Origin: Jaminaea rosea
Taxonomy: Eukaryota; Basidiomycota; Exobasidiomycetes; Microstromatales
Reading direction: 5' to 3'
Assembly: GCF_003144245.1 (NCBI RefSeq)
Contig: NW_020289992.1
Span: 248,001-312,000 of the forward strand
Length of the DNA stretch: 64,000 nucleotides
Shown here: piece after piece, positions 7,010 to 55,707 of the stretch
How positions within the stretch are numbered: the stretch's first letter is position 1
How the letters are laid out: every line of letters begins with the position of its first letter
Position numbers and translations under genes: made by a program
Notes under the pieces: model-generated
Database searches by the model: none
The model's input: only the letters and a program-made list of their open reading frames with translations
Told to the model about the DNA's origin: nothing

Positions 7010-7442
7010 ATGATCGCCACAATCTTCGCCCTCTTTCTAGCCCTCGCTACAATCCCCATCGCTCGGGCAGACGATGTCATCATAGGCTCGTGTTACGGCG
7101 GGTGAGTGTACGCGCGCAGGCGCCTCGTCTTCTTGGGCGGCGAGCTTACGACTCCACATCGATCGCAGCCGTGCCTGCACTCAACATCCTCGCGGTCCAT
7201 ACGGCTACCCCGTCCGTGCGCCCCTCAGCAACTTCTCCCCCCTCACCCTCCCCGCTGGGTGCCTCAGCTTTCACCCTCAGAGCACTGCGGGCTTGCTCAG
7301 CGTTACGGCTTGCGGTGGAGCCGACTGCAAGGGAGAATGTCAGAAGATGACGCCCGATGGCGAGAAGGAGGACGACGTGTGCTTCACGCCCGAGAGGAGG
7401 GACGCCAGTGTTGAGTCGCTGTGCATGCAGTGGGTCTACTGA
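7010..7442 (+). CDS. Small secreted 8-Cys protein, cluster copy 1 (divergent)
   Basis: Two exons, 7010-7101 and 7169-7442 (121 aa). The first 20 residues form a clear signal peptide ([20 protein letters not shown]). The mature protein of about 101 residues has exactly eight cysteines. GSCY occupies the same place as the GxCY of the five neighbours, and the first intron is in the same phase 2 position. It is the most divergent copy: the second intron shared by the others (after ACQ) is absent and the C-terminal NPGSSA motif is replaced by a charged stretch ending in SLCMQWVY. Presumably exported. The family is not one I recognise; killer toxin, hydrophobin and CFEM spacings do not fit. Membership rests on position, signal peptide, intron 1 and cysteine order. 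Confidence 0.75.
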
Positions 7443-8034
7443 CGAGGACAGGAGTGGCAGTCAAGGGGAGGAAGAAGACTTGCAACGTCAACCTTCGATC
7501 GCGACGTAGCCAGGATTCCCTATATCTCGACTCAAGCCGCGCAAAGCTCACTCTATTTTGCTTCAGACTGGGCTACGTACAAGAGCGGGCCCCACCAATA
7601 TCACGAAACTTTCCTCCTCGCAGTTCCCGCCAGCCCCAAGACTGCTTCATAGCCTCGCTGCCCAGCCCTCACATCGCCGCCGGCGCAATGCGTGCCCGTA
7701 CCCAACGTGGCCCGTAGTCCGAGGGAATGTGGGCCTAGGACAAGAACCTTTACATTTTCCCCTCGGCCATCGCAAATATTATGCCGAGTCTACTCTTGCT
7801 CCGATGGGTAATGCCCGCGTGCGAAAGCTGACGGGCTGCGCGAGTGCTCGCATTCAAAGGCGCCGACATATTATCCCCTTGCCGTGAGAGGGTCGCGGGC
7901 GCAAGCACGAGCGAGCAAGGTAGACGTCGCTGCTTGAGACGGCCACATCGTGGCAGCAGATGCTCCCCCATCTTTGGTCTCAGTGGCCAGCTACAGTACC
8001 TCCTACGCCTTACTCGCTCAAAAGCACTGACGAC
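7443..8034. other. Intergenic, copies 1-2
   Basis: No gene found. It should hold the terminator of copy 1 and promoter of copy 2. No decayed extra copy with the ACQ-GGC or NPGSSA motifs is seen. Confidence 0.4.
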
Positions 8035-8540
8035 ATGACCAAGCTCTCACCTACTCTCGCCGCACTCGCTGCCTTTCTCGCCATGGCAGCTCTCACTACC
8101 GTGGTCTCCGCTGACAAGGTCAAGCTAGGCTGGTGCTACACAACGGCGTGGGTACTACGAGCGGTGCATCCATCTCTTCGCTGACTTCTGATGTCTTCCC
8201 CCTCCTCGCTGAACGTTGATGCCTCACCACTGCCAGCGACTGCTCCAACGGAGAATTCTTCAAGGTTGAGGGCCAGCGCAACATCAAGACGACGGACATC
8301 TCGAAGTCCATTCGCGACTGCAAGTCCTTCCTCGCCCAGCCTGACCCGATGGCGGAGGTCTTTGCCTGCCAGGTGAGTACCGACACGCGCACCTCCCGAA
8401 TGAGACTGACGACCAGACGCGTATGCCTTGCTCAGGGAGGATGCGACAAGGACTGCAACTCCGCCGCCTTTGGCAAGTGCCTCTACCTCAACCCAGGGAG
8501 CAGCGCCAATGCGCGATACAACTGCATCAAGCGGTGGTGA
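8035..8540 (+). CDS. Small secreted 8-Cys protein, cluster copy 2
   Basis: Exons 8035-8147, 8237-8372 and 8436-8540 (117 aa). A signal peptide with cleavage near VVSA-DK is followed by a mature chain of about 91 residues with cysteines at 34, 40, 66, 82, 86, 90, 98 and 113. Family landmarks are LGWCY at the end of exon 1, DC at the start of exon 2, CKSF, ACQ at the end of exon 2, GGC at the start of exon 3, and NPGSSANARYNCI near the end. Introns are phase 2 and phase 0. Intron 2 (63 nt) is a multiple of three and lacks a stop, so the unspliced frame stays open. Function unknown; small size, export and paired cysteines fit an apoplastic effector-like protein, by inference only. Confidence 0.85.
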
Positions 8541-8937
8541 TGGCGTGCGGGATCAATTGTGGGCGCGAGCGCGCACCGTGAGGGCCGACTTGGGCACTGC
8601 TGCAAGACGCCAATATCGACGCTGATTTCCCTCATGCGCCCGTGAGGTCTCTCTGAGCACTTTACCACCAGCGTAATACCGTACCTCTGGTCGCATTGTC
8701 TGCCAAAGACTGGCGGCACGACGCACGTTCCCCATCACTGAGATGCCGTTGCTCGCGCCCCCGAAGGCGAATCCTCTCAGGACTTGCCGTGCCCTCCTGA
8801 TACCTGCGAGTCGCTGCCCGCGGCTTGAAATGACTGGACAAGCCGCGCTGAGATTGCCGCCAGACGCTCGGTGGTGTAAAGTGCCGAGCAGCTCTTCGAG
8901 GATCTTGCTCTCCTAACCATCACTCCGTCTACCCAAC
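8541..8937. other. Intergenic, copies 2-3
   Basis: No gene seen. A C/T-rich stretch just before 8938 is the likely leader of copy 3. Confidence 0.4.
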
Positions 8938-9438
8938 ATGACCAAGCTCCACGCCACGCTGCTTGCCTTTGTCATCGCCTCCTTCGTCAGTCGTACCCTG
9001 GCGGAGCAAGTCGCCCTCGGCACCTGCTACTCTACGGCGTGAGCTCACTCTGCTCGTGGCACGAGAATGACTTTAGCACGCCACTGACATGCGACTCGCA
9101 TTCCCACATGCCTAGCAACTGCCTCTACGGACAGCATGGCGTCGTCTACGATGAGAGCGGCGCGAAGACGACCAACATCGAGAATAGTAATCCCATCTGC
9201 AAGGGCTTCGTTGTCAATCCCTTAATCACCAAAACGACGTATGCCTGCAAGGTACGTCGCCGAGCCGTTGTGAGCATCACCTGCCTGCCACGCTGACCCG
9301 CCTACCCAACCCGTTCGCACTCGGATATCGCAGGGTGGCTGCAACAACGACTGCGTGCGAGCCCCTGCGACCCTGTGCGCCTCTGTGGGTATCGGTAGTC
9401 CTGCTAGCGCCCATTTCAACTGCATCAAGCGAGAGTAG
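8938..9438 (+). CDS. Small secreted 8-Cys protein, cluster copy 3
   Basis: Exons 8938-9038, 9116-9251 and 9334-9438 (113 aa). It shares the N-terminal MTKL and signal peptide pattern of copies 2 and 5. Cysteines lie at 30, 36, 62, 78, 82, 86, 94 and 109, with the same spacing in the exon 3 part as copy 2. Exon 2 (136 nt) and exon 3 (105 nt) have exactly the lengths seen in copies 2 and 4, although many other residues differ. Landmarks are LGTCY, NCLYG, CKGF, YACK, GGCNNDC and FNCIKRE. The last motif shows SPASAH where neighbours have PGSSAxAR. Confidence 0.85.
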
Positions 9439-9790
9439 GGGCCCTTTCGAGCGCGAAGTGCCTTTGCTTTCTTCGATTTGTGCGCCAGCTCTCTCTATCT
9501 CCAGCGACAAGAGATACGAGCGTCGTACACTGTCCCTCCTCAGCCATTCTGTTCGTCGTGTGCGTCGCTTAAGGCGGTCGTAACACGGCCCGCTACAGAT
9601 GTGATGCCCGTACTCACCGGCCCGTAGCCAACGCCCGAATATGTGCGGCTTGTCTCGCCTGGAGGCACTGGTGCACTCCTGGGCAACAGCCGCTTTGCTG
9701 TGTGCCGTCGACATCCAACGCTGCGTGTAATGGCGTGAGACCACGCTCGCGCTGCTTCACCAGCCGACTCCGTCTTCGCTCAAACCGAAT
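9439..9790. other. Intergenic, copies 3-4
   Basis: No gene seen; presumed terminator of copy 3 and promoter of copy 4. Confidence 0.4.
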
Positions 9791-10293
9791 ATGCTCAGTG
9801 CTGCACTCACCGTCCTCTTTGATGTCCTCTTTGCCACGCACTTCATGGCTGAACGCATCTCGCCGGGAGCCTGCTACAGCACGGAGTGAGTGCAGGCGAG
9901 TGCAGGCGAGTGCCGCTCGTCCCAAGCCCCATAACCTGCTGAAGCACCACCGAGTCCATCATACGTCTCGACAGCAACTGCCTCAACGGACAGCAGGCCA
10001 TCGTCTACGGCGAGCGCAAGGAATTGGCGACGGATATCTCGAAGAGCGTGACCTTCTGCAGGCGCTTCATCGTCCGCCCGGAAATCAAGGAGACAACGTA
10101 TGCCTGTCAGGTGAGCGTGATACGATGGAGGTGGATGCCTGGCTGAAATGAGCTGATCGCCTGCCTTTGCGCGCCCACGACGACGTAGGGCGGCTGCGGC
10201 CACTTCTGCAATCGAGCCCATACGGGTCTCTTCTTGATGTTCAACCCAGGCAGCAGCGCTACCGCCCGATACAACTGCATCATTCGACAGTGA
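9791..10293 (+). CDS. Small secreted Cys-rich protein, cluster copy 4 (7 cysteines)
   Basis: Exons 9791-9885, 9975-10110 and 10189-10293 (111 aa); exon 2 and 3 lengths match copies 2 and 3 exactly. The leader (MLSAALTVLFDVLFATHFMA) is hydrophobic but carries an Asp and a His, so it is a weaker signal peptide than in the other copies. The mature part has GACY, NCLNG, FCRRF, YACQ, GGCGHFC and YNCII. The seventh family cysteine, before the NPGSSA motif, is missing (GLFLMFNPGSS), leaving seven cysteines and one without its usual partner. The frame is intact throughout, so it reads as a functional gene that has drifted, though early decay cannot be excluded. Confidence 0.8.
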
Positions 10294-11074
10294 GGGAGGG
10301 AGCAAGTGCCTTCGCTTCTCAACCAGTGACGTGGATGGCCTTCTCTTCGGCTCGCGAGGCGATGATGTGTGAATTGAAAGAGGGAATGGGAGAAGGGAAT
10401 CAAGGCGGACCAAGTCGGTTTGGTGTTGATCTCGAGGGGCGGACAGACAAGAGACCACGCGGCTTTTTTCCCGAGGCCAATCTGTGTTGGACACTTCGGG
10501 CGCGAAGTCCGAGTCCGTGCGTCTCCGCTGCTCAGCAGCGATGCAATAATCCACACCTTGCTTCCTTTCGCCCCTCATCATCGTAATACCATCAGCATCC
10601 TCAGATCGACAAGTGATCTCGCTCCGTCTTCTTCACGCAGTGCGCTAGCCTCACCTCACTACTCTGCTGCCCCTCCGCCGCCACGACGCTTGTCTCAACT
10701 TCAATCTTGCGCCGAAACGTCGTTACAGCCCGGTCAGCATTCTGCTCACCACAGAAGGACGACGGACCGTGCCGCCCCTACGCCTGGGCACCATGGTTGC
10801 ATCCACTTCTTCGAGCTGATAAGAGGCCGTGTTACGGCCGCAGATAGCCTGCAAAGTTGACACAGCGCAGCGACAACATAGCCAACGTTTTTCAACGGCA
10901 AACGAGTCAAGATGGGCGGGGGCTGCGAAGCTTACGGCTCGCAATGAGTACACTTGAGAGCGGCGGCTCGTTGCAGCGCAATGTCCGGGAGCGCAGCCAG
11001 CAAGTCTATAAGATAACGAGATAGGCCTGCCGCCAGCGTGTACCATCTCTCACAGAAGCAACACCGCGCCTACC
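10294..11074. other. Longest spacer inside the cluster
   Basis: 780 bases between copies 4 and 5 without a supported gene on either strand. I looked for remnants of a further copy (GGC, NPGSSA and YAC motifs) and saw none. A TATA-like box lies near its right end. Confidence 0.4.
11007..11012 (+). promoter_or_regulatory. Candidate TATA box of cluster copy 5
   Basis: TATAAG lies 63 bases before the ATG of copy 5, a plausible distance for a short leader. The other copies lack an equally clear TATA element. Confidence 0.35.
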
Positions 11075-11590
11075 ATGACTAAGATCGCCTCCATCCTTGC
11101 AACCATCACTGCCTCAGCTCTGCTACTCGCCACGCAGGCTACAGCTCAGCAGATCGACCTCGGTCTCTGCTACTCCACGGCGTGAGTGTGCGAAGGGAGG
11201 CTTGCTCGACTCTCTCCCCGACTCTGACTCACTCCTACCTGCAGCAACTGCATGGGCGGCGCCGAGCCGCTCACTGCCTTTGGGGACAAGAGCCAGAAAA
11301 TCACGCCCATCGGGAGCCTGGCCTACTGCAAGGGATTCAAGCTTGACAGCAACGTCGAGAATCAGGCCTATGCCTGCCAGGTACGTGTCCGCGGCGCGGC
11401 ATACCCGCCTGAACGAGGCTGATGCTCGCTCTGCCTCTATTCGTCCACTCAAACCTTCGCACAGGGAGGCTGCGCTCCCGGCGGAGGTAAGGACTGCACC
11501 AGGGCTGACCCCGGTTCATGCACCCAGCTCAAACCAGGAAGCAACGCTGGAGCTCGTTTCAATTGCATCGTCCGAGTGGGCCCCCCCTAA
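11075..11590 (+). CDS. Small secreted 8-Cys protein, cluster copy 5
   Basis: Exons 11075-11181, 11245-11380 and 11465-11590 (122 aa). A strong signal peptide is cut near ATA or ATAQ. All eight family cysteines are present: LGLCY, NCMGG, YCKGF, YACQ, GGC, KDC, GSC and FNCIV. Exon 2 has the family length of 136 nt. Exon 3 is 21 nt longer than in copies 2-4, from a Pro/Gly-rich insert after GGC (APGGGKDC) and a short tail VGPP. Exon 2 is closest to that of copy 6 (shared TPIGSL and YCKGF), suggesting these two arose by a later duplication. Confidence 0.85.
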
Positions 11591-11919
11591 AGTGATGCGA
11601 GGCCTATCGGCGTCGAAGTCAAGCGCAAGCATATCATGTCTCCTCGACTTGTAGCCTGCGCCAACGACAAAGGCAGTCAATGTGAATGTGTTCAAGATCT
11701 CACGAGAGCACACGCTATCCGTCATGCCGCGTGAAGGCGCAGAACGATTCGGGTGAGGTCATCGCTCGAACGGAGGTCGCGGCGCCATAGTGAAGCCGCG
11801 TGCGCTTGCCCGCTGCCCAGAGGGTCGTCATCATGGCAGCGGCCGGCTCTTGTCGAGCAGCTTGTCCTCCCTCATACTGACTGCTCGCAATTACCCACCA
11901 ACCAGTGCGCTGCGCCAGC
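11591..11919. other. Intergenic, copies 5-6
   Basis: No gene seen; presumed terminator of copy 5 and promoter of copy 6. Confidence 0.4.
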
Positions 11920-12452
11920 ATGATCGTCAGCCCCGCCGCGCTAGTCACCTCTGTCGCTCTGCTCCTCTCATCTCGCGTTGCTGCCGACGACAAGATCGAG
12001 CTAGGCTTGTGCTATCCATCGGCGTGAGCGTCAAGGGGAATTGTCTGTCTGCGCACGTCACGCCGGCTCGAGCAGCTGATGTAGCCCCTCTCTCTCGCCG
12101 GCAGCGACTGCTTCACCGGCCAAACCATCACTGTCTACGGCAAGAAGAACGACACGCAGACGCCCATTGGCAGTCTGTCCTACTGCAAGGGCTTTCAAGT
12201 TGATCCGGACGTTGGCAAGCAAGTCTGGGCTTGTCAGGTACGTCAGAGCGTGGTCAGCACACCCGCCAGCCGTGTACTGATCTTCAACATGACGCCGCAC
12301 AGGGAGGATGTGGCGTGCAGTGTAACCGCGCCGATAATGGAGTGTGCACCAAGCTCAACCCTGGTTCCAGCGCTGCTGCCCGCTTCACCTGTATTGTCCA
12401 TGTTGGGCCTGGTCCGGCGGCGGTGAGAGGCGCTACAGTGGGAGACGCGTAG
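11920..12452 (+). CDS. Small secreted 8-Cys protein, cluster copy 6
   Basis: Exons 11920-12023, 12105-12237 and 12303-12452 (128 aa). The signal peptide ends near RVAA-DD. Eight cysteines follow the family order: LGLCY, DCFTG, YCKGF, WACQ, GGC, VQC, GVC and FTCIV. Exon 2 is one codon shorter than in copies 2-5. Exon 3 carries the longest tail of the family, a Gly/Pro/Ala-rich extension after VHVGPGP that ends in VGDA. It is the last copy of the array; a tRNA-Ser gene on the opposite strand lies 128 bases downstream. Confidence 0.85.
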
Positions 12453-12579: not shown

Positions 12580-12677
12580 CGACAGCAAGCGGGTTCGAAC
12601 CGCTGAGCGCAGAGCGCATCAGATGAGACTGCGTAGCAAATTCAAGTCTGACTCCTTAACCACTCGGACATGCTGCC
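12580..12677 (-). tRNA. tRNA-Ser (anticodon UGA) with a 16-nt intron
   Basis: The minus strand folds into a full class II tRNA. The acceptor GGCAGCA pairs with TGCTGTC (one G-T wobble) with discriminator G; the D arm is TCCGAGTGGTTAAGGA; the anticodon stem TCAGA pairs with TCTGA around the loop CTTGAA plus A; a long variable arm contains GCGC-TCT-GCGC; the T arm is AGCGG-TTCGAAC-CCGCT. A 16-nt intron (12640-12625) interrupts the loop one base 3' of the anticodon, the canonical site. The variable arm, discriminator G and anticodon TGA agree on serine (UCA codons). A Pol III terminator follows. Confidence 0.93.
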
Positions 12678-12880
12678 ATGACTGTGTCCAGAGTAGCGCG
12701 CGGCCTGCAACAAAATATATATACAGCTTGCAGCTCAGACGCACCGGCTCATCGCCCGCCTCGACCGCGTGGTCGACGGGACGGCGCAGGCGACGAAATC
12801 GGTGGAGCGTGTCCGTCTTTCGCTTTCCTCGTCGTCATCGAGCACCCACTGCCGTGAACCACCACTACCCTCTCTTCACC

Positions 12881-27286: not shown

Positions 27287-27488
27287 TTCATCGAGGATGT
27301 GGTAAGGAATCTCAATCAAAAAGTCATCGAGGCTGCGAAGCCAGTTCCGCTCCGCATCGATGCACTTGTCTCGACTGGGCGCGCGTGGTCTGGCCGCCGT
27401 CCGTCGATCCATCCGCTCGAGCCAATGCGCCGCCGTCGCTTCCTCGTTCCCTTTGTTCCCTTTGTCTCGTCGCGCCAACATCATCACA
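27287..27488. promoter_or_regulatory. Divergent promoter COQ11 / TPR
   Basis: About 200 bases between divergent start codons. An in-frame ATG at 27360 precedes the chosen TPR start and may be leader. Confidence 0.45.
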
Positions 27489-30400
27489 ATGGCAGACGTC
27501 GACGTCGAGGCTCCAATGGCGCCGCCACCGACGGTCACGATGCCGCCAGACGTGACAACAGAAGCACTCCAAGCGGCCATCCAGGCCCATGCCTCGCCAT
27601 CACCTGCGATGCCTTTCGACCTCGTCAACCCTTCGCCGGAGCTCGTCACCGCGATCTACTCAGCCCTTGGCGCGCTGTCCTCCAAGTACGAGGCAGAAGT
27701 AGCCGCTCGTGAAGCGCGCGAGGCAGACGTCGAATCACAGCTCAACGAAGCCAATGCAAGGCAGGCAGACGCCGAGCAGCGGGCAGCCACATCTGCGAGC
27801 GAGGCCCAGGCTGCTCAGGCTGAAAAGACGACCGCTCAGTCTAGCCTTGCAGAGGTACAGGCAGAGCTAGCAGCCATCAAGTCCGACCTTGAGAGCGGCA
27901 ACTCTGCCAGTCTCGAAGTCAAGGCTGTCCTCGAGAAGGAACAAAGAGAAAAGCGCGAGATCCTCGAGATTCTCGACCGCGAGCGCGCAGAAGTCAGCCG
28001 TAGCGCGCAGGAGGCCGACTCACTCAAGGCCACCGTCCGTGATCTGCGCAAGGAGAATGGACAGCTTAGCGCCGAGGTACAAGAAGTCAAGGCAACGGAG
28101 AGCACTGCGAGGTTCAAGGTTCAGTCTCTTACGCAGGAGTTGGAGCTCGCACAGAAGGATGCCAAGTGGGCGCATGCCGAGCTATCGAAGCTCAATACTG
28201 AGCAGACAGCTTTCCGCTCGAGCAAGCATTCAGAGGTCGTCAGACTGCAGAGCGAGCTCGATGCTGCTACCGCGTCCTTGAGTGCTCTGGAGTCCAAGGC
28301 AGAAATGCTCCAGTCTGCCGTCGACCAGAACACTCGTAGACTCAATGAGGCGGCGAACGAAAAGGAAGAGCTGGCTGCGAGAGTAGCGAGCCAGGAGGAG
28401 GGCTTCAGAAGGGAGATGGAGACCAAGGATCGCCTGACGTCGCTGCTTCAGCGCAGGGCGGACGATTCTGCTCGCCGAGTCCAGCAGGTTGAAGAGGCTT
28501 GGGAGAAAGTCCTCGAGGAGTGCAGGGAGCGTGAAGAAGAGCTCAGAGCAGAGATGCAATCCGGTCGCGCAGACGTAGACCGCCTTGAGCAAGAGAAGCA
28601 AGACCTCAAGATCGCCTTAGACCGACTGGCAGAAAGCGTCGGCATCGACACTGGCTCAGCACCGCGTGCCTCTACCCCGTCTACGCCCCTCATCCGCCCT
28701 TTCAATGGCTCCATTGGCTCCGTCGGTCTCGGTATGTCCCCTACAGCGTCCATGGCCGCCTCGATGCAGCGTTCCGGCAAGACATTCACCGAAGTGTACA
28801 CCTCCCTCGCTAAGACCGAGGAAGAGCTCCGTCGCGAGAAGCTGGAGACAAGCCGCCTTACTCAGATCCTTGAGACGGTCATGACCGACCTGCAGGAGCG
28901 AGCGCCGGCACTGCAGGCTCAGAGAGAGGAGACGGAGAGACTAGGCGCTGCACTCGAGGAGTTGAGCGCAGACTTTGCGAAGGCGTGTGAGGACAGGGAT
29001 GTTGCAGAACGCGTATCGAAGCAGAACCAGGCACAAAGGGCGGCTTTGGAGCGTGAGAATGGACTGCTGGGCCAGCAGCTGGCCGATCTGGGCCGCCAAG
29101 TTCGCACTCTTACGCGCGAGATCATTCTACGTGACGATCCCTCGGCTGCGGACCGACTTCAAGACGACGGCAGTGACCTGAATGGCGTCAGCGAAAATGA
29201 AGGCGACACCAACAATGTCATCACTACACAACTCGTCACCTTCGATTCCCTCACCTCCCTCGTCGCTCAAAATGGCCGCTTGCTCCGCGTAGCGCGCGAG
29301 CTTGGCGCACGCATGGAGGAGGAGGAATCACGATGGCGCGAGCGCAACGGTCGCGAGGAGAGCGAGGCTGTTCAAGAGGCCGTGCGCACCATTGAGAGGC
29401 TGGAGAGCGAGATTCACTCGGCACGCGCCAGGATCGAGGCCGTCAGGAGAGAGAGGGACATGTTCCGCTCCATGCTTGCGACGGGGGCGAGAGGCGGAGG
29501 CATTGTTCCTGCAGCCGCATCAGCCAGCAGCTCAGGCGTCGACTCTGGCGTACATGCAGCCCTCGCCAACCAATACTCCACCCTCCAAGGCCAATTCGAT
29601 GCATTCCGTGAGGAGACGGCGCGAGACGCCGATGCGCTGAAGGAGGAGGCACGTCACGCCCGCGATGAAGCCGGTCGAAGCGCCCTCACCGCCGCGAGGG
29701 AGAAGGCCGGTCGCGAAGCCACCGATCAACGTCTCCGTACCCTCCAGCAGACCTTCGAGTTGCAACGCAGCGAGCTGGCCGAGGTCACAAAACGCCTCCG
29801 CCCTCAACAAGAGCAGATTGCCCGCCTTGAGACATCATCCCAGACCCTTTCTGAGGAGCTCCTTTCCAGCCGCAAAGAGCTCGACCGCCTTCGCAACGAA
29901 AGCGCAAATCTGCGCGCTGAGCGTGACTTGGCCAAGGCGGCCGAGCAGCGTCTTGTGGATGAAGTAGGGTCGATGGTCAAGGAGAAGGCAAGCTTGAATG
30001 AGCTGCTGCGCAATGTGCAGACGATGCAGAATGAGCTGGACCGCTCCGCTGGGGAGACGAGGCGTAGGCTGGAGGGACAGGTGGAGAAGCTCGAACAGGC
30101 AGAGAGGGAGACAAGAGAGCGCTTGCAGCGAGAGGAGAAGGCAAGAAGGGAAGCTGACCTCAGGCGTGAGGTCGAGAGTAACAGCCTGCAGGGCCGCGTG
30201 GAGAAGGCTACGGCTGAGCTCGCTGAGGCGAGGCAGCAGCTCGCAGTCGCAAGGACCAATGTCGAGCATGTCACTCGCCGCGCTGAGGACTTGCAGAAGC
30301 AGGTCGACACCAAGGAGGAGAAGCTAGCCGTTTACGAGCGTCGAGCAGGCGGAGGCGGCGCAACTTCTTCGCAATCAAGCACCGGCACCGGCGGCAACGA

Positions 30401-33400
30401 GCAACAATTGCAAATCGAGCTGGCCGAGCTTCGTGGTGAGCTCCGCAGTGCGCAAGTGGAAGCAGAGCAGTCGCGCTCGCACGTTGAGCAATTCAAGGCC
30501 ATCTCTCAGGCCAGCGAGGAGGCTCTCTCTCAGCTGCAGGCCACCTACGAGGAATACAAGACGTCCACTGAAGCCAGCGTTGCGCAGAAGGACTCGGAGA
30601 TCACCCATCTCAGAGAGCGACTGGAATCAGTCGCCACAGAGATCACAACTCTGCAGAACGAGGCCTCCTCTGCGCGCCAGGCGCTCGAGGCACAGCGCAG
30701 CGAATTTGCGGCCGAGAAGCGTTCCCTTGAGGACGCTCTCGCCGACCTGGGCAGCGTAGAAGAGCGGGCCCGCGCAGAGCAGCAAGGCGTGCGTGCGGAC
30801 GTGGAGCAACATGCCCGCCTCGCTAGGGAAGCCCACGCCAAGTACGAACAAGAGCTCGTCGCGCACGCCGACGACATCCGCGCTCTGTCCACCGTCAAGG
30901 AGGATCTGGAGCGCACCCGCACTGAAGCGCGCGAAGCGCAGCGTAATGCTGAGGTGGCGCAAGCCAACGCTAGCTCGTCGCAGGTCAGCTGGGAGGCTCA
31001 GCGCGAACTGTTGGTAAAAGAAAGGGATGCTGTGCAGGCGAGATTGGGCGAGGTGACTGAGCAGAACAAGATTCTTCATGAGCATCTGGAGAAGCTCACG
31101 GAGCAAGTGGGGCAAATTCGTGGGGCGCGTAGCACCGACTCTGCCGTGGGACCATCAAGCGCGATCGCCGCGGCTGTGGACGGCGACGCTTCCTTCAGTG
31201 CCTCACCTCCCGACGAGCTGCACGAAGTGGTTCGCTATCTCCGCCGCGAAAAGGAGATTGCCGACCTTCAGCTCGACCTCAATAAGCAGGAAGCAACGCG
31301 ACTGCGGCTCAACCTCGAGCACACCAATCGAGCCCTGGAGGAGACCAAGGTCCAGCTGGCCGAGGAGCGACAATCCAACGCCGCCGGTTCTACGGCCGGC
31401 GAAGGGCCGGCTGCACGCCAACACGACGATCTCATGGAAAAGATCAACCAGCTCTCGATCCTACGCGAGTCCAACTCTACCCTTCGTGACGAGGCGGAAC
31501 GCTCGGCACGCAAGTGCAACCTCTTGCAGACACAACTGGACAGCACCCGCTCCGAGCTTGACCCTCTACGCGAGCAACTTCGCACTGCCCAATCCGAGCT
31601 CAGCGCTGCGCAGGGCCAATTGAGCATCGTCCAGGAAGACAACAAGCGCTGGCAGGCTCGCGCGCAGAGCATCCTCGCGCAATACGATCGAGTTGATCCC
31701 GAAGAGGTGAAGAGGCACGAGGAGAGAGCAAAGGAGCTGCAGATCCAGCTAGAGCAGGCGCAGAAGCAGACGGCTAGCTCAAAGGAGCAGTTTGAAAAGC
31801 TGAGGGCACAGGCGAGCGCTACAATTGGGAGATTGAAGGGCGAGATCCAGGGGTTGAAGGACGAGAAGGAGGCGCTGATCAAGGAGAAGGATGAGTTGAA
31901 GGCCGGAAAGGAGGCCGGTGATGAGGAGCACAAGAGCGCATCAGAGCGAGCGGCGGAGGAGGCGAAAGCAGCTGCTGCGACTGCGCAACAGAAGATTGAT
32001 GAGCTCCAAGCTCAAGTCGCACAGCTGGAGGCCGCAGCCCAAGAAGCCGCATCCAGCGCTGTCAACACAGCCAATGATGAGTCGTCCGCCGCTGCCAAGG
32101 CCGACAATGCCGATGGAGCCCCAGCAGCAGCCTCTCCCCCACCTACCTCCTCATCAGCAGCCGATGTGGCTACTGCTCTCGCTGAAGCCCGCGCAGCTTG
32201 GGACGCAGAGAAAGCAGAATTGGAAACCTCGAAGGCCGCTCTTGCGACCAGGGAGAAGACACACCATCAGAAGGCCCGAGAATTCCTGCAGCAGGCGCGC
32301 CAGGCGATGAAGGAGAAGGACGAGGCGATCAAGGAGAGGGACGAGTTGAAGACGAAGCTGGAGCAAGGGAGTGGTGGGCAGGATGGAGTGAAGCAAGAGA
32401 CAGATGGTGAAAAGCCTGCTGAGTCAAGTAGCTCCATCACGCCCGACCTTGCTGCCCTTCAAGCCGAGGGCGAGACTCTCAAGGCCCGCATCACCGAGCT
32501 GGAAGCTGCCCTAGAGCAAGCCAACGCGAGGATCGCCGAGCTGGAGGCTCAGCTCACCTCTTCAACAACAGAATCCGGCGAAGCCACGTCGTCCGACGAT
32601 ACGGCATCGCAAATCGCCGCCCTCAAGTCCGCCCACGCCGAGGAACTCAAAGCGCAGCAAGCCACTCTCGCCAAGAGACAGAGTATGGCCATCGATGTTG
32701 CCGTCAAGAAGGCTCAGTCCGCTGCCTCTGGCGGTGGTGCAGAGGTCGAGGGGCTCAAGCAGCACCTTGCAGAAAAGGAGAAGGAGCTCGCCCAGTTGCG
32801 CGAGGAGCGCGACGCTCTCAAAGCTTCTGCAGCCTCATCTTCAACGCCGGCCACGCCAGCCGCTGGCGCGTCAAGCAGCACCGACTCAGAGGACCCGGTC
32901 CACAAGGCTCGATACGAGGCGGGCTACGCGGCTGGCAAGAACGAGGCGACGTTGCGCAATCAGCTGTTGATCAAGCAAAAAGACGGGAAAATCGCCAAGC
33001 TGACGGCAGAGATCGCTGAGCTGCGTGGCCAAGCAAGCGGCTCTACTGCTAGCCCCAATGCGGCGACGCCTACTGCTCCTGCTGGACCTTCTGCCGCTGG
33101 TGCAGGTGCAGGAGCAGCCAGAGGAGGACGAGGGGGAGGGACGACTGCCAACCTTCCTACTCGACCTGGAGCCGCGGGCGCTGCTGCTGCAGGAGCTCGC
33201 GGAGGGGCAGCAGCAGCAGGAGCAGGAGCCGCTCGTGGTGGTCTGAGCCTTCGTGGAGCAGGTGGTCTGCGCGGCCGTGGTGGAGCTAGAGGCGGCGCTA
33301 TTGGTGGCGCTGGTCAGAAGCGTAAAGCCTCGGAAAGTGGGGCAAGTGGCGGACCCGCAGCAGCGGGTAATGCTGCTGGTGGGGCAGGGGGAGGAGCTGA

Positions 33401-33443
33401 GGGGGAGAATGCAGCTAAGAAGGCTAAGCCTGGAGGGGAGTGA
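27489..33443 (+). CDS. MLP1: Nuclear-basket protein TPR/Mlp1
   Basis: Giant coiled-coil protein lining the nuclear pore basket, acting in mRNA export surveillance and chromatin tethering. A single exon of 1984 aa. Heptad-rich coiled coil runs from about residue 60 to 1200 and again to about 1750, with Gln/Glu/Ala/Arg-rich composition typical of Tpr/Mlp; the Mlp1-like region lies around AISQASEEALSQLQATYEEY. A proline/serine break (SAPRASTPSTPLIRPF) is near residue 395. The C-terminal 200 residues are disordered, with RGG/GAA-rich stretches and a basic NLS-like segment (GQKRKASESG, AAKKAKPGGE). The start at 27489 has a CACAATGG context; an upstream in-frame ATG (27360) would add 43 basic residues. 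No intron in 6 kb is striking here. Confidence 0.88.
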   Translation: MADVDVEAPMAPPPTVTMPPDVTTEALQAAIQAHASPSPAMPFDLVNPSPELVTAIYSALGALSSKYEAEVAAREAREADVESQLNEANARQADAEQRAATSASEAQAAQAEKTTAQSSLAEVQAELAAIKSDLESGNSASLEVKAVLEKEQREKREILEILDRERAEVSRSAQEADSLKATVRDLRKENGQLSAEVQEVKATESTARFKVQSLTQELELAQKDAKWAHAELSKLNTEQTAFRSSKHSEVVRLQSELDAATASLSALESKAEMLQSAVDQNTRRLNEAANEKEELAARVASQEEGFRREMETKDRLTSLLQRRADDSARRVQQVEEAWEKVLEECREREEELRAEMQSGRADVDRLEQEKQDLKIALDRLAESVGIDTGSAPRASTPSTPLIRPFNGSIGSVGLGMSPTASMAASMQRSGKTFTEVYTSLAKTEEELRREKLETSRLTQILETVMTDLQERAPALQAQREETERLGAALEELSADFAKACEDRDVAERVSKQNQAQRAALERENGLLGQQLADLGRQVRTLTREIILRDDPSAADRLQDDGSDLNGVSENEGDTNNVITTQLVTFDSLTSLVAQNGRLLRVARELGARMEEEESRWRERNGREESEAVQEAVRTIERLESEIHSARARIEAVRRERDMFRSMLATGARGGGIVPAAASASSSGVDSGVHAALANQYSTLQGQFDAFREETARDADALKEEARHARDEAGRSALTAAREKAGREATDQRLRTLQQTFELQRSELAEVTKRLRPQQEQIARLETSSQTLSEELLSSRKELDRLRNESANLRAERDLAKAAEQRLVDEVGSMVKEKASLNELLRNVQTMQNELDRSAGETRRRLEGQVEKLEQAERETRERLQREEKARREADLRREVESNSLQGRVEKATAELAEARQQLAVARTNVEHVTRRAEDLQKQVDTKEEKLAVYERRAGGGGATSSQSSTGTGGNEQQLQIELAELRGELRSAQVEAEQSRSHVEQFKAISQASEEALSQLQATYEEYKTSTEASVAQKDSEITHLRERLESVATEITTLQNEASSARQALEAQRSEFAAEKRSLEDALADLGSVEERARAEQQGVRADVEQHARLAREAHAKYEQELVAHADDIRALSTVKEDLERTRTEAREAQRNAEVAQANASSSQVSWEAQRELLVKERDAVQARLGEVTEQNKILHEHLEKLTEQVGQIRGARSTDSAVGPSSAIAAAVDGDASFSASPPDELHEVVRYLRREKEIADLQLDLNKQEATRLRLNLEHTNRALEETKVQLAEERQSNAAGSTAGEGPAARQHDDLMEKINQLSILRESNSTLRDEAERSARKCNLLQTQLDSTRSELDPLREQLRTAQSELSAAQGQLSIVQEDNKRWQARAQSILAQYDRVDPEEVKRHEERAKELQIQLEQAQKQTASSKEQFEKLRAQASATIGRLKGEIQGLKDEKEALIKEKDELKAGKEAGDEEHKSASERAAEEAKAAAATAQQKIDELQAQVAQLEAAAQEAASSAVNTANDESSAAAKADNADGAPAAASPPPTSSSAADVATALAEARAAWDAEKAELETSKAALATREKTHHQKAREFLQQARQAMKEKDEAIKERDELKTKLEQGSGGQDGVKQETDGEKPAESSSSITPDLAALQAEGETLKARITELEAALEQANARIAELEAQLTSSTTESGEATSSDDTASQIAALKSAHAEELKAQQATLAKRQSMAIDVAVKKAQSAASGGGAEVEGLKQHLAEKEKELAQLREERDALKASAASSSTPATPAAGASSSTDSEDPVHKARYEAGYAAGKNEATLRNQLLIKQKDGKIAKLTAEIAELRGQASGSTASPNAATPTAPAGPSAAGAGAGAARGGRGGGTTANLPTRPGAAGAAAAGARGGAAAAGAGAARGGLSLRGAGGLRGRGGARGGAIGGAGQKRKASESGASGGPAAAGNAAGGAGGGAEGENAAKKAKPGGE

Positions 33444-52946: not shown

Positions 52947-55707
52947 TCAGCAATGATGATGATGATGCTGCTGCTGTTGGTGATGCTCATGCGGCTGAGC
53001 ATAAGGCTGGCCTTGGAGCTGATGCCCCTGCTGGTGCTGCTGCTGAGACGCCTGCATTACCTGCATCGCCATGGGAAGCGGGCCCCGATGCTCTGCGGCA
53101 GCAGCCAAGCTCCCGTGCAGACTTCCTAGGGTCAAGAAGTGGGAACGAGGGATTATGTCGTTCTCCGACTCGTTCAAAAATTGCAGCACCACATCCAAGG
53201 ATTGCCGAGCTTGATCAAGGGAGACGGCATCCTCGCCGTCAAGACCACCGTGCCCGCCACCGCCGCCACTCCCACCGCTGGCGTGGCTGCTGCCAATGCT
53301 GCTGGAGTGAGCATGACCGCTACCGTCGAGAATCCGGGTGGCTGGAGAGCGAGATTGGGGAGATCCAGCGCTGCCAGGGTCGCCAGCGTCGGTGCGAGTA
53401 TTGGTCTCGAGCATCATACGACGTATGGCGGTGGAACGAGGGCTCATGCGACGAAGACCTTCTGCTCCTGCTACTGCCGCTCCTCCTGATCCGAGGCTGC
53501 GCGTATGCTGCATAGCCTGCGATGAAGTTGAGGGGTCAAGCCCACTGCTTGCGAGGAGGGAGTCGTGGCTCATGTCTCCAAAGCCACTATCGTCGCCGAT
53601 GCCGGAGTTGGACGCTTTGCGGGCCACGCTGCCTTGTTGGTGGCCGAAGCCAGGCGAGGTGTTGCTGCGTCCCAGATCGGAGAGGCGAAGTGGCCTCAGT
53701 GGGGAAGTAGGAGAGGGACGCCATCCCTGGCCATGATGCTGCTGGAGATGGTGCTGCTCAACGCTACCGCCAACGGTAGGCGCGACTGGTTGCTCGGGAG
53801 AGGACGAAGGAAAATCGGCGCTCACTCCCATGAAGCGTGCTGCCAGACCTTCTTGCGAACCCGCTCCTCCGAGGCCGTGCTGCCTGTGCTGTTGATGATG
53901 CTGCTGTCGAGAAGCCCTGACCATCTCAGGAAAAGGGGAGCCCAGCCCATTACCATCATCCTCGTTGTTGACACTGCCTCGCCTTCTCTTGGACTCGTGG
54001 TGCATCTCATAGCCGATGCTGCCTCCGCTGTTTTGTGAGTCGTGATCATGGTCAAAGGAGGACAGAGATGACGACGCTGCGGCAGCGGCCGTCCGTTGAT
54101 CGGGAGCAATGGCATCGTAATGGCGCTTTTGCTTCGAGGTGGGTGTGGTGCGAATGCCCATGGCAATGTCGCTGTCCGAGGAGAGCATGGCATTGTTGCT
54201 ACTGTCCATGGGCGGAGAGGCAGGGCGTACGGTAGGCATGGCCGCCATTGTTGCTGGTGGCATGGGAGCCGCCTCGAGGCGACCGTGCGAGGTAGTGGGC
54301 ATCGAGTGGCAAAAGCGTGGCATCATGTAGTCTGGCGCCGTAGAAGAGAAGGTACTCGAGAGCGTTGATGGCAATGACGAAGTCGGGGCGCCATCAAATG
54401 GCGAGCTCATGATCATCTCTTGACTGCTGCTTCCTGGAATCTGCTTGCGAAGCCCGCTCCTCGTTCTAAACTTGTCCACCCAGCCGCCCGAGGCTTTGAA
54501 CTTCTCAGTGGGCCCGCCAATGGCTTTAGCGATTTCGAGGGCGCGATTCTTGATTGATGTGTCGGTGAGCGTCTGGCCAGCAGCCTGCGCCGAGTGAGCC
54601 CACATGCTGAGCTGTCGCTCGAGCTCGGGGAAGCGGGCTTGGCGATGCTTGACAATCTTGGAGTCGACGCTGCCCTCTTCGACGGCGAGCCAACGCTCCT
54701 TGTCCTTGAGCACTTTGCTCACCGTGCTGCGCTCGACGCCGAAAAGATTTGCAAGGTCCTGGTGTAAGGGGAGGGAAGAACGATGTCAGTGTCGGCCGCG
54801 GCAGAATCCTCTTGATCGCACCCCTCGCACTCACCTCCTGCTTCAGCTTCGGATTGGCCTCGTGCTGCTCGCAGATGCGCTTGCGATCGATGTTGAGCAG
54901 CTTGACCTTCTTCTTGCCGCTTGACTTTGCCACGCCGCGACTGTCGACCGAGAGCCACTCCTCGGAGAGAGACGCAGAGAGGGACGAAGCCCGCGAGTCG
55001 TTGAAGCTGTCCATGGACGTGTCTCGCGAGTCCATTGACGAAGACGTACCGCCAGAGACGTAGCGCATCGAGTCGCTGGTTGCGGTGGATGAGCCGACAG
55101 GTGAGAAACCTTGTGCGCCCGTAAAACTGACGGGCGAGTTGAAGGAGGTAGAGGCCCCTGCGGAGCTGGTGCCGCCTGGCGAGGAGGACCGAACGCTCTG
55201 CGCAAAGGCGCTGCTATTGGTGGATATGGCCATGTTGGCCATGTTGGGCGTGGTTCCGGTGCGAGTGATTCGGCCAGGTGCCACGCCGGGTAACGGCGAG
55301 GAGGGGCCCATTCGCATGGGAGTATACGGAGACTGGCGCTGAGCTTGCGCGAGGGCGCCCATCTGGCCGAGGCTCGAATGGCGGTGGTGCGCAGAAGGCA
55401 GCTGACGGCCATTTGAGGTGAGACCAAGGCCCAAAGCTGCGCCGGCAGAGTGAGGTGGCTGCTGGCCGAGCTCATGTCCAGGGCTTGGAGTCATGTGAAT
55501 CGCGCTATTGCCGTGACCCATCACATCGTGTGGGGAGGCCGTGGCAGGGTGAGCGTTCATCTCTCCGTAGAAGGCCGACCCGCCATCGTTGCTGGCCGAT
55601 GTACTAAAGTTTGGCATCGTCGGCATGTCGGTTTGGGATCCCATCGGTGAGACGAAGACGTCTTGACGCGGTGTCTGCTGGACATGAGGATGGTGCTGCT
55701 GCAGACG

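Follow-up and report, generated by a model that had tools for sequence, protein, structure and literature searches.

Do the six same-strand genes that lie in tandem at positions 7010-12452 of a 64,000-nucleotide stretch of the Jaminaea rosea genome (contig NW_020289992.1, 248,001 to 312,000; hereafter the window) belong to any known family of secreted proteins, and what might such proteins do for a leaf-dwelling fungus? J. rosea belongs to the Microstromatales (Exobasidiomycetes), is a relative of the smuts, and is given as a phylloplane fungus in the available excerpts of PMC7766764. An earlier note, made from the letters alone, had read the array as paralogous eight-cysteine proteins of an unrecognised family with the look of effectors. 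Our analysis establishes the genes, their exon plan, their cysteine scaffold, their homology and their copy number, and it adds two things that the note had not foreseen, namely that the family is genome-wide, with 49 copies counted, and that structure prediction places it in a fold class already known. Taken as a whole, the explanation that we favour on balance is that secreted proteins of crystallin fold, encoded by a family spread through the genome, act outside the cell, with antagonism of other microbes somewhat ahead of a role towards the plant.

The family is defined by the signature G-x-C-x5-C...C-x-S-F...C-x(3,4)-C...C...C...C, in which neither the glycine two positions ahead of cysteine 1 nor any of the eight cysteines varies across 18 aligned members, a set that does not include the array gene g4. 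Among 30 members the spacing C1-x5-C2 holds in every one (30/30), and the cysteines that follow are separated by 18-29, 11-16, 3-4, 2-7, 6-15 and 6-27 residues. Cysteines 7 and 8 each align in 29/30, a tyrosine follows C1 in 19/30, and the second and third residues after C3 are serine in 24/30 and phenylalanine in 25/30. At least eight cysteines are present in 29 of the 30, g4 having seven. The general scaffold that had been proposed for the array thus stands, but its motifs are less fixed than was claimed, since g4 lacks cysteine 7, g1 lacks ACQ, GGC and NPGSS, and g3 has no leucine in its C-x2-L motif.

The similarity between members extends beyond the cysteines. Against a mature-part profile of 28 other members, g1 and B1, its counterpart in a second cluster, score 33.5 and 40.0 bits, and the best of 400 shuffles with fixed cysteines reaches 17.4 bits against the same profile; the likeness therefore exceeds chance, and g1, whose similarity to the other array members by BLASTP is very faint, is homologous by profile. 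With a profile of 13 core members, 16 of 17 outsiders score above their own 99% level of cysteine-fixed shuffles and 11 of the 17 outscore all full shuffles; the lowest outsider (C1_1864.3) has -0.7 bits. In the reverse comparison all 13 core members exceed both shuffle levels.

A hidden Markov model (HMM) of the 30 members, scanned over the window and 17 other stretches of the genome (4561 open frames of at least 30 residues), recovered at least 49 copies at a frame E<1e-3, both clustered and single, on eight contigs (C1 10, C6 1, C7 1, C8 7, C14 12, C16 3, C17 9 and C18 6). Thirty of these copies trained the model and match by construction, and 19 are independent of training; frames were grouped into copies manually, those at E 1e-3 to 1 were left out of the count, and because the scanned stretches were chosen for their matches, the figure of 49 is a minimum and gives no density. 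The training members were written as proteins, some with an uncertain start, and the other 19 are known as open frames. Within the 64-kb window no further copy appeared beyond the six, the lone outside frame at E<=1 having an E-value of 0.74. Genes B2-B5 and a cluster of three genes on C17 show the same two-intron plan as g2-g6; a single intron, differently placed, interrupts C7a, and in several other members the domain is free of introns (comparisons made partly by eye). Members at C1:1.86-1.97 Mb (L017, L022 and L023) carry extra cysteines near the N-terminal end, arranged GxCC...C...C, for 9-11 in the mature part, and some of them have an extra stretch between leader and domain.

Within the array, gene models were built from sequence alone (Table 1), and all 11 introns have GT..AG borders. 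Genes g2-g6 are interrupted at two identical sites, in phase 2 and then phase 0 (5/5); exon 2 measures 136 nt in four of them and 133 nt in g6, and exon 3 measures 105 nt in three. Their products are 39-53% identical in pairs (BLASTP E-values 8e-21 to 9e-41), and each begins with a hydrophobic leader, called by eye, ahead of a mature part of 91-106 residues (manual cut). The coordinates of the six genes, the three-exon plan shared by five, mature chains of about 90-105 residues and the variability between cysteines, all of which had been read off the letters, were reproduced. Product g6 is identical over 128/128 residues to the deposited J. rosea protein BDZ90DRAFT_234734 (P0002). The deposited form of g2 (P0003) begins at an internal methionine, and deposited P0001 joins g3 and g4 into 216 residues (window 8938-10293), which is probably an annotation error, a read-through transcript being a possible alternative source; a deposited g5 was not found among the protein database matches. 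As the deposited models also differ for g1, an independent model backs g6 alone in full. Routine surveys can miss the family, since several members of the array are wrongly joined, shortened or absent in the deposited annotation.

Table 1. The six array genes, all on the plus strand, in window positions.
Gene	Exons	Strand	Product	Cysteines	Gene structure and state	Deposited counterpart
g1	7010-7101, 7169-7442	+	121 aa	8	one intron, diverged member	P0005, other ends
g2	8035-8147, 8237-8372, 8436-8540	+	117 aa	8		P0003, N-terminally truncated
g3	8938-9038, 9116-9251, 9334-9438	+	113 aa	8		first part of fused P0001
g4	9791-9885, 9975-10110, 10189-10293	+	111 aa	7	cysteine 7 lost	second part of fused P0001
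g5	11075-11181, 11245-11380, 11465-11590	+	122 aa	8		none turned up
g6	11920-12023, 12105-12237, 12303-12452	+	128 aa	8	structure predicted	P0002

The second cluster, B, at C17:99.9-103.6 kb (L010 2404-6049), opens with a gene of g1 type and continues on the same strand with four of g2 type, the order also found in the window. In the tree g2-g6 form one group (92/79), B3 branching just outside it and B4 one step further, and g1 joins B1 (88/99) along with the long-branch row C16_96. The simplest history would begin with one ancestral pair, g1-type and g2-type, of which a copy reached a second locus, with tandem growth at both; this is only a sketch, as no more than 3 of the 27 inner branches have good support. 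The comparison of nonsynonymous (dN) and synonymous (dS) divergence that the earlier note had proposed was run on g2-g6, where the mature part gives dN 0.33-0.69 and dS 0.67-2.14, with dN<dS in 10/10 pairs; as dS is partly near saturation, diversifying selection is neither supported nor ruled out. In the short leader region dN exceeds dS in one pair, g3-g6.

Structure prediction of g6 yielded eight beta strands, with a confidence near 80 across the domain; of the 43 solved structures that aligned best with it, 39 were of betagamma-crystallin type. The family fold is on this evidence probably the betagamma-crystallin/killer-toxin double Greek key, so that a family unrecognised by sequence, as had been claimed, is predicted to fall in a known structural class. 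Three secreted antimicrobials share that fold, namely WmKT/HM-1 of yeast, SKLP of Streptomyces (1f53) and plant MiAMP1; a sequence match between these and the family was not found. In the available excerpts, HM-1 (WmKT) binds mannoproteins and inhibits beta-1,3-glucan synthase (PMC12715866), and MiAMP1, of similar structure, inhibits plant-pathogenic microbes (PMC4695807). The J. rosea family differs from them in having about 50 members and its own eight-cysteine signature, and it is not known to kill microbes; WmKT and MiAMP1 were absent among the best 50 structural matches listed for the g6 model. Neurospora APP, spherulin 3a and the lens crystallins are calcium-binding or structural betagamma-crystallins, unlike which the J. 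rosea proteins have eight conserved cysteines, the calcium motif in one of 30 members and no Pfam match.

How these features would work together can be put as a mechanism. Within a family of about 50 genes spread over the genome, the array would form one cluster, each intact gene of the family giving a small protein that its leader, by eye, would direct to the outside. The mature domain of about 75-110 residues would fold as a probable betagamma-crystallin-like, eight-stranded double Greek key held by up to four putative disulfides, and the protein, free or displayed on the wall, may bind a surface target outside the cell. A constant disulfide core would carry intervening residues that vary from copy to copy, and the outcome may be antagonism of leaf microbes, for example a killer-toxin-like interference with the cell wall or its synthesis. 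The leaf-surface habit makes antagonism between microbes a natural role, and net charges from -4.9 to +5.8 do not favour a single membrane-lytic mode for all members. Export by appearance, tandem growth and a fixed scaffold agree with the effector-like character first suggested, and the host- or competitor-facing function itself we infer. The most specific version, in which about 50 crystallin-fold proteins, free and stalk-mounted and descended from the ancestral g1-type/g2-type pair, are used in combat or recognition among microbes on leaves, we offer tentatively.

The strongest competing explanation is that these are apoplastic effectors whose targets would be leaf cells or defence proteins of the plant while the fungus grows epiphytically or as a cryptic endophyte. 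The proteins are small, rich in cysteine and preceded by a leader, their family is expanded and its members divergent, plant pathogens occur in the lineage, and the betagamma-crystallin fold is, in the available excerpts of PMC10462633, one of eighteen orphan candidate effector families found in >80% of 20 fungal genomes. Those crystallin-class effectors resemble the present family in predicted fold, in being secreted orphans and in pairing a stable core with a variable surface. They differ in that massive expansions are called rare in those excerpts, whereas here 49 copies occur in a phylloplane fungus. Against a plant-directed role stand the listing of J. rosea as a phylloplane fungus only, so far as the available excerpts of PMC7766764 go, and the pairwise dN<dS of the mature part. 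We consider it a possible but less favoured explanation, microbial antagonism being somewhat more likely.

A rather doubtful alternative is that the family is real and its crystallin-like fold a prediction error, the true fold being another disulfide-rich beta fold. Several points weigh on that side and against the crystallin assignment. The fold rests on one model, g6, from an alignment of ten rows, six of them exon pieces and three of these repeating the g3 already present in fused P0001; the structural matches have weak E-values; and prediction of the distant member P0006 gave no usable model. The calcium motif [ND][ND]xx[ST]S, which occurs in many betagamma-crystallins though not all, was found in B4 only, and an internal Greek-key repeat was not detected by half-against-half profile comparison, a test of low power with halves so short. 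On the other side are the confidence of the g6 model over its domain and the dominance of a single superfamily, not a mixture, among its structural matches, and we retain the crystallin-type fold as the probable one.

It seems unlikely, next, that the proteins serve the cell wall or adhesion, the domain binding the fungus's own wall, the extracellular matrix or the leaf surface. One copy speaks for such a role. At C8:435754-438306 on the minus strand (L012 6255-8807) an 851-residue open frame runs from a hydrophobic leader and a KR site through about 700 residues of Pro/Thr/Ser/Asp-rich tandem repeats to a C-terminal cysteine domain, which scores 22.6 bits; its start codon probably lies in a separate tiny exon, placed by eye where a script found no model. 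With its place at the tip of a stalk, the cysteine domain would seem to be an independent unit capable of being displayed. However, the stalk occurs in one copy of 49, the other modelled copies being small and seemingly free, and the hydrophobin pattern is absent in 30/30 members.

Sequence searches returned no convincing family match in Pfam, NCBIfam or the PDB, in line with the earlier note, and the remaining weak matches were taken as chance; the best, GON against g4 (E 0.0068, 16.8 bits), lies below the 22.6 cut-off and was so judged. The crystallin Pfam model gave no match at E<=10 with the six window proteins or with the 18 members of alignment A2, and none was listed at E<=10 for KP4, KP6, LysM or cerato-platanin with the same 6 and 18 proteins, the presence of these models in that Pfam copy being unchecked. 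Beyond J. rosea, protein database searches returned only two near-identical metagenome fragments, and since such a search relies on words of five residues in common, and in one instance overlooked P0001 and P0003, which are true relatives, the result is weak evidence for absence elsewhere. Pattern-matching stretches on viral contigs (13) and bacterial/archaeal contigs (9) included none that was confirmed as a relative. A library of viral structures gave no match at E<=0.001. No description of this eight-cysteine family occurs among the literature matches listed, subscription papers lying mostly outside reach. Within the reach of these searches it appears new as a sequence family. It is improbable that this is an ordinary tandem array from some secreted family described earlier, for although the overlooked P0001 and P0003 and the largely inaccessible subscription literature leave room for one, the libraries, the listed literature and a cysteine pattern unlike those of hydrophobins, CFEM and HFS all stand against it. 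The two fragments, P0004 and P0007, hardly differ from g3 exon 2 and B1; this near-identity points to a strain or close relative in public data, usable for within-species comparison.

Among fungal protein classes, the HFS hyphosphere proteins and hydrophobins likewise have eight cysteines and are secreted. The available excerpts of PMC8596622 give their patterns as C-CxxxC-C-C-C-C-C and C-CC-C-C-CC-C; CxxxC at the second and third cysteines occurs in 0/30 members, and the hydrophobin pattern, for which Pfam also gave no match, in 0/30. CFEM spacing was found in 0/30, again with no Pfam match. The IGYP proteins of Marssonina and the CCL-SSP proteins of Sclerotiniaceae are lineage-expanded small secreted proteins too, and IGYP genes also keep a three-exon plan; in the available excerpts the former have an IGY motif, 2-4 cysteines and mostly 187-268 aa (PMC4367982), by which they are excluded, and the latter have 10 cysteines and another motif (PMC7060139).

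With these results, what began as six genes has become a defined family, about 50 strong, whose cysteine signature is searchable. If the fold is right, the crystallin/killer-toxin fold would have expanded greatly here, in a way reported to be rare among fungi, and in a species that the available excerpts list as phylloplane and not as a pathogen; this lets one ask whether effector-like expansions serve microbial competition rather than disease.

The array grew, as the earlier note had it, within a housekeeping region, its neighbours with Pfam matches being SRAP, Tom22, thiolase, Utp11, SEP/UBX, Mlp/TPR, SYF2 and a helicase. Just beyond it, at about 12580-12680 on the minus strand, the sequence by eye resembles an intron-bearing tRNA gene, where ARAGORN (bacterial settings) and Rfam reported none. 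The Mlp/TPR-like frame (27360-33443, plus strand, 2027 residues) lies where the sequence is strongly AT-skewed (+0.25), and a 591-residue frame at 52947-54722 on the minus strand carries a Tc5-type transposase DNA-binding domain (E 3.4e-14).

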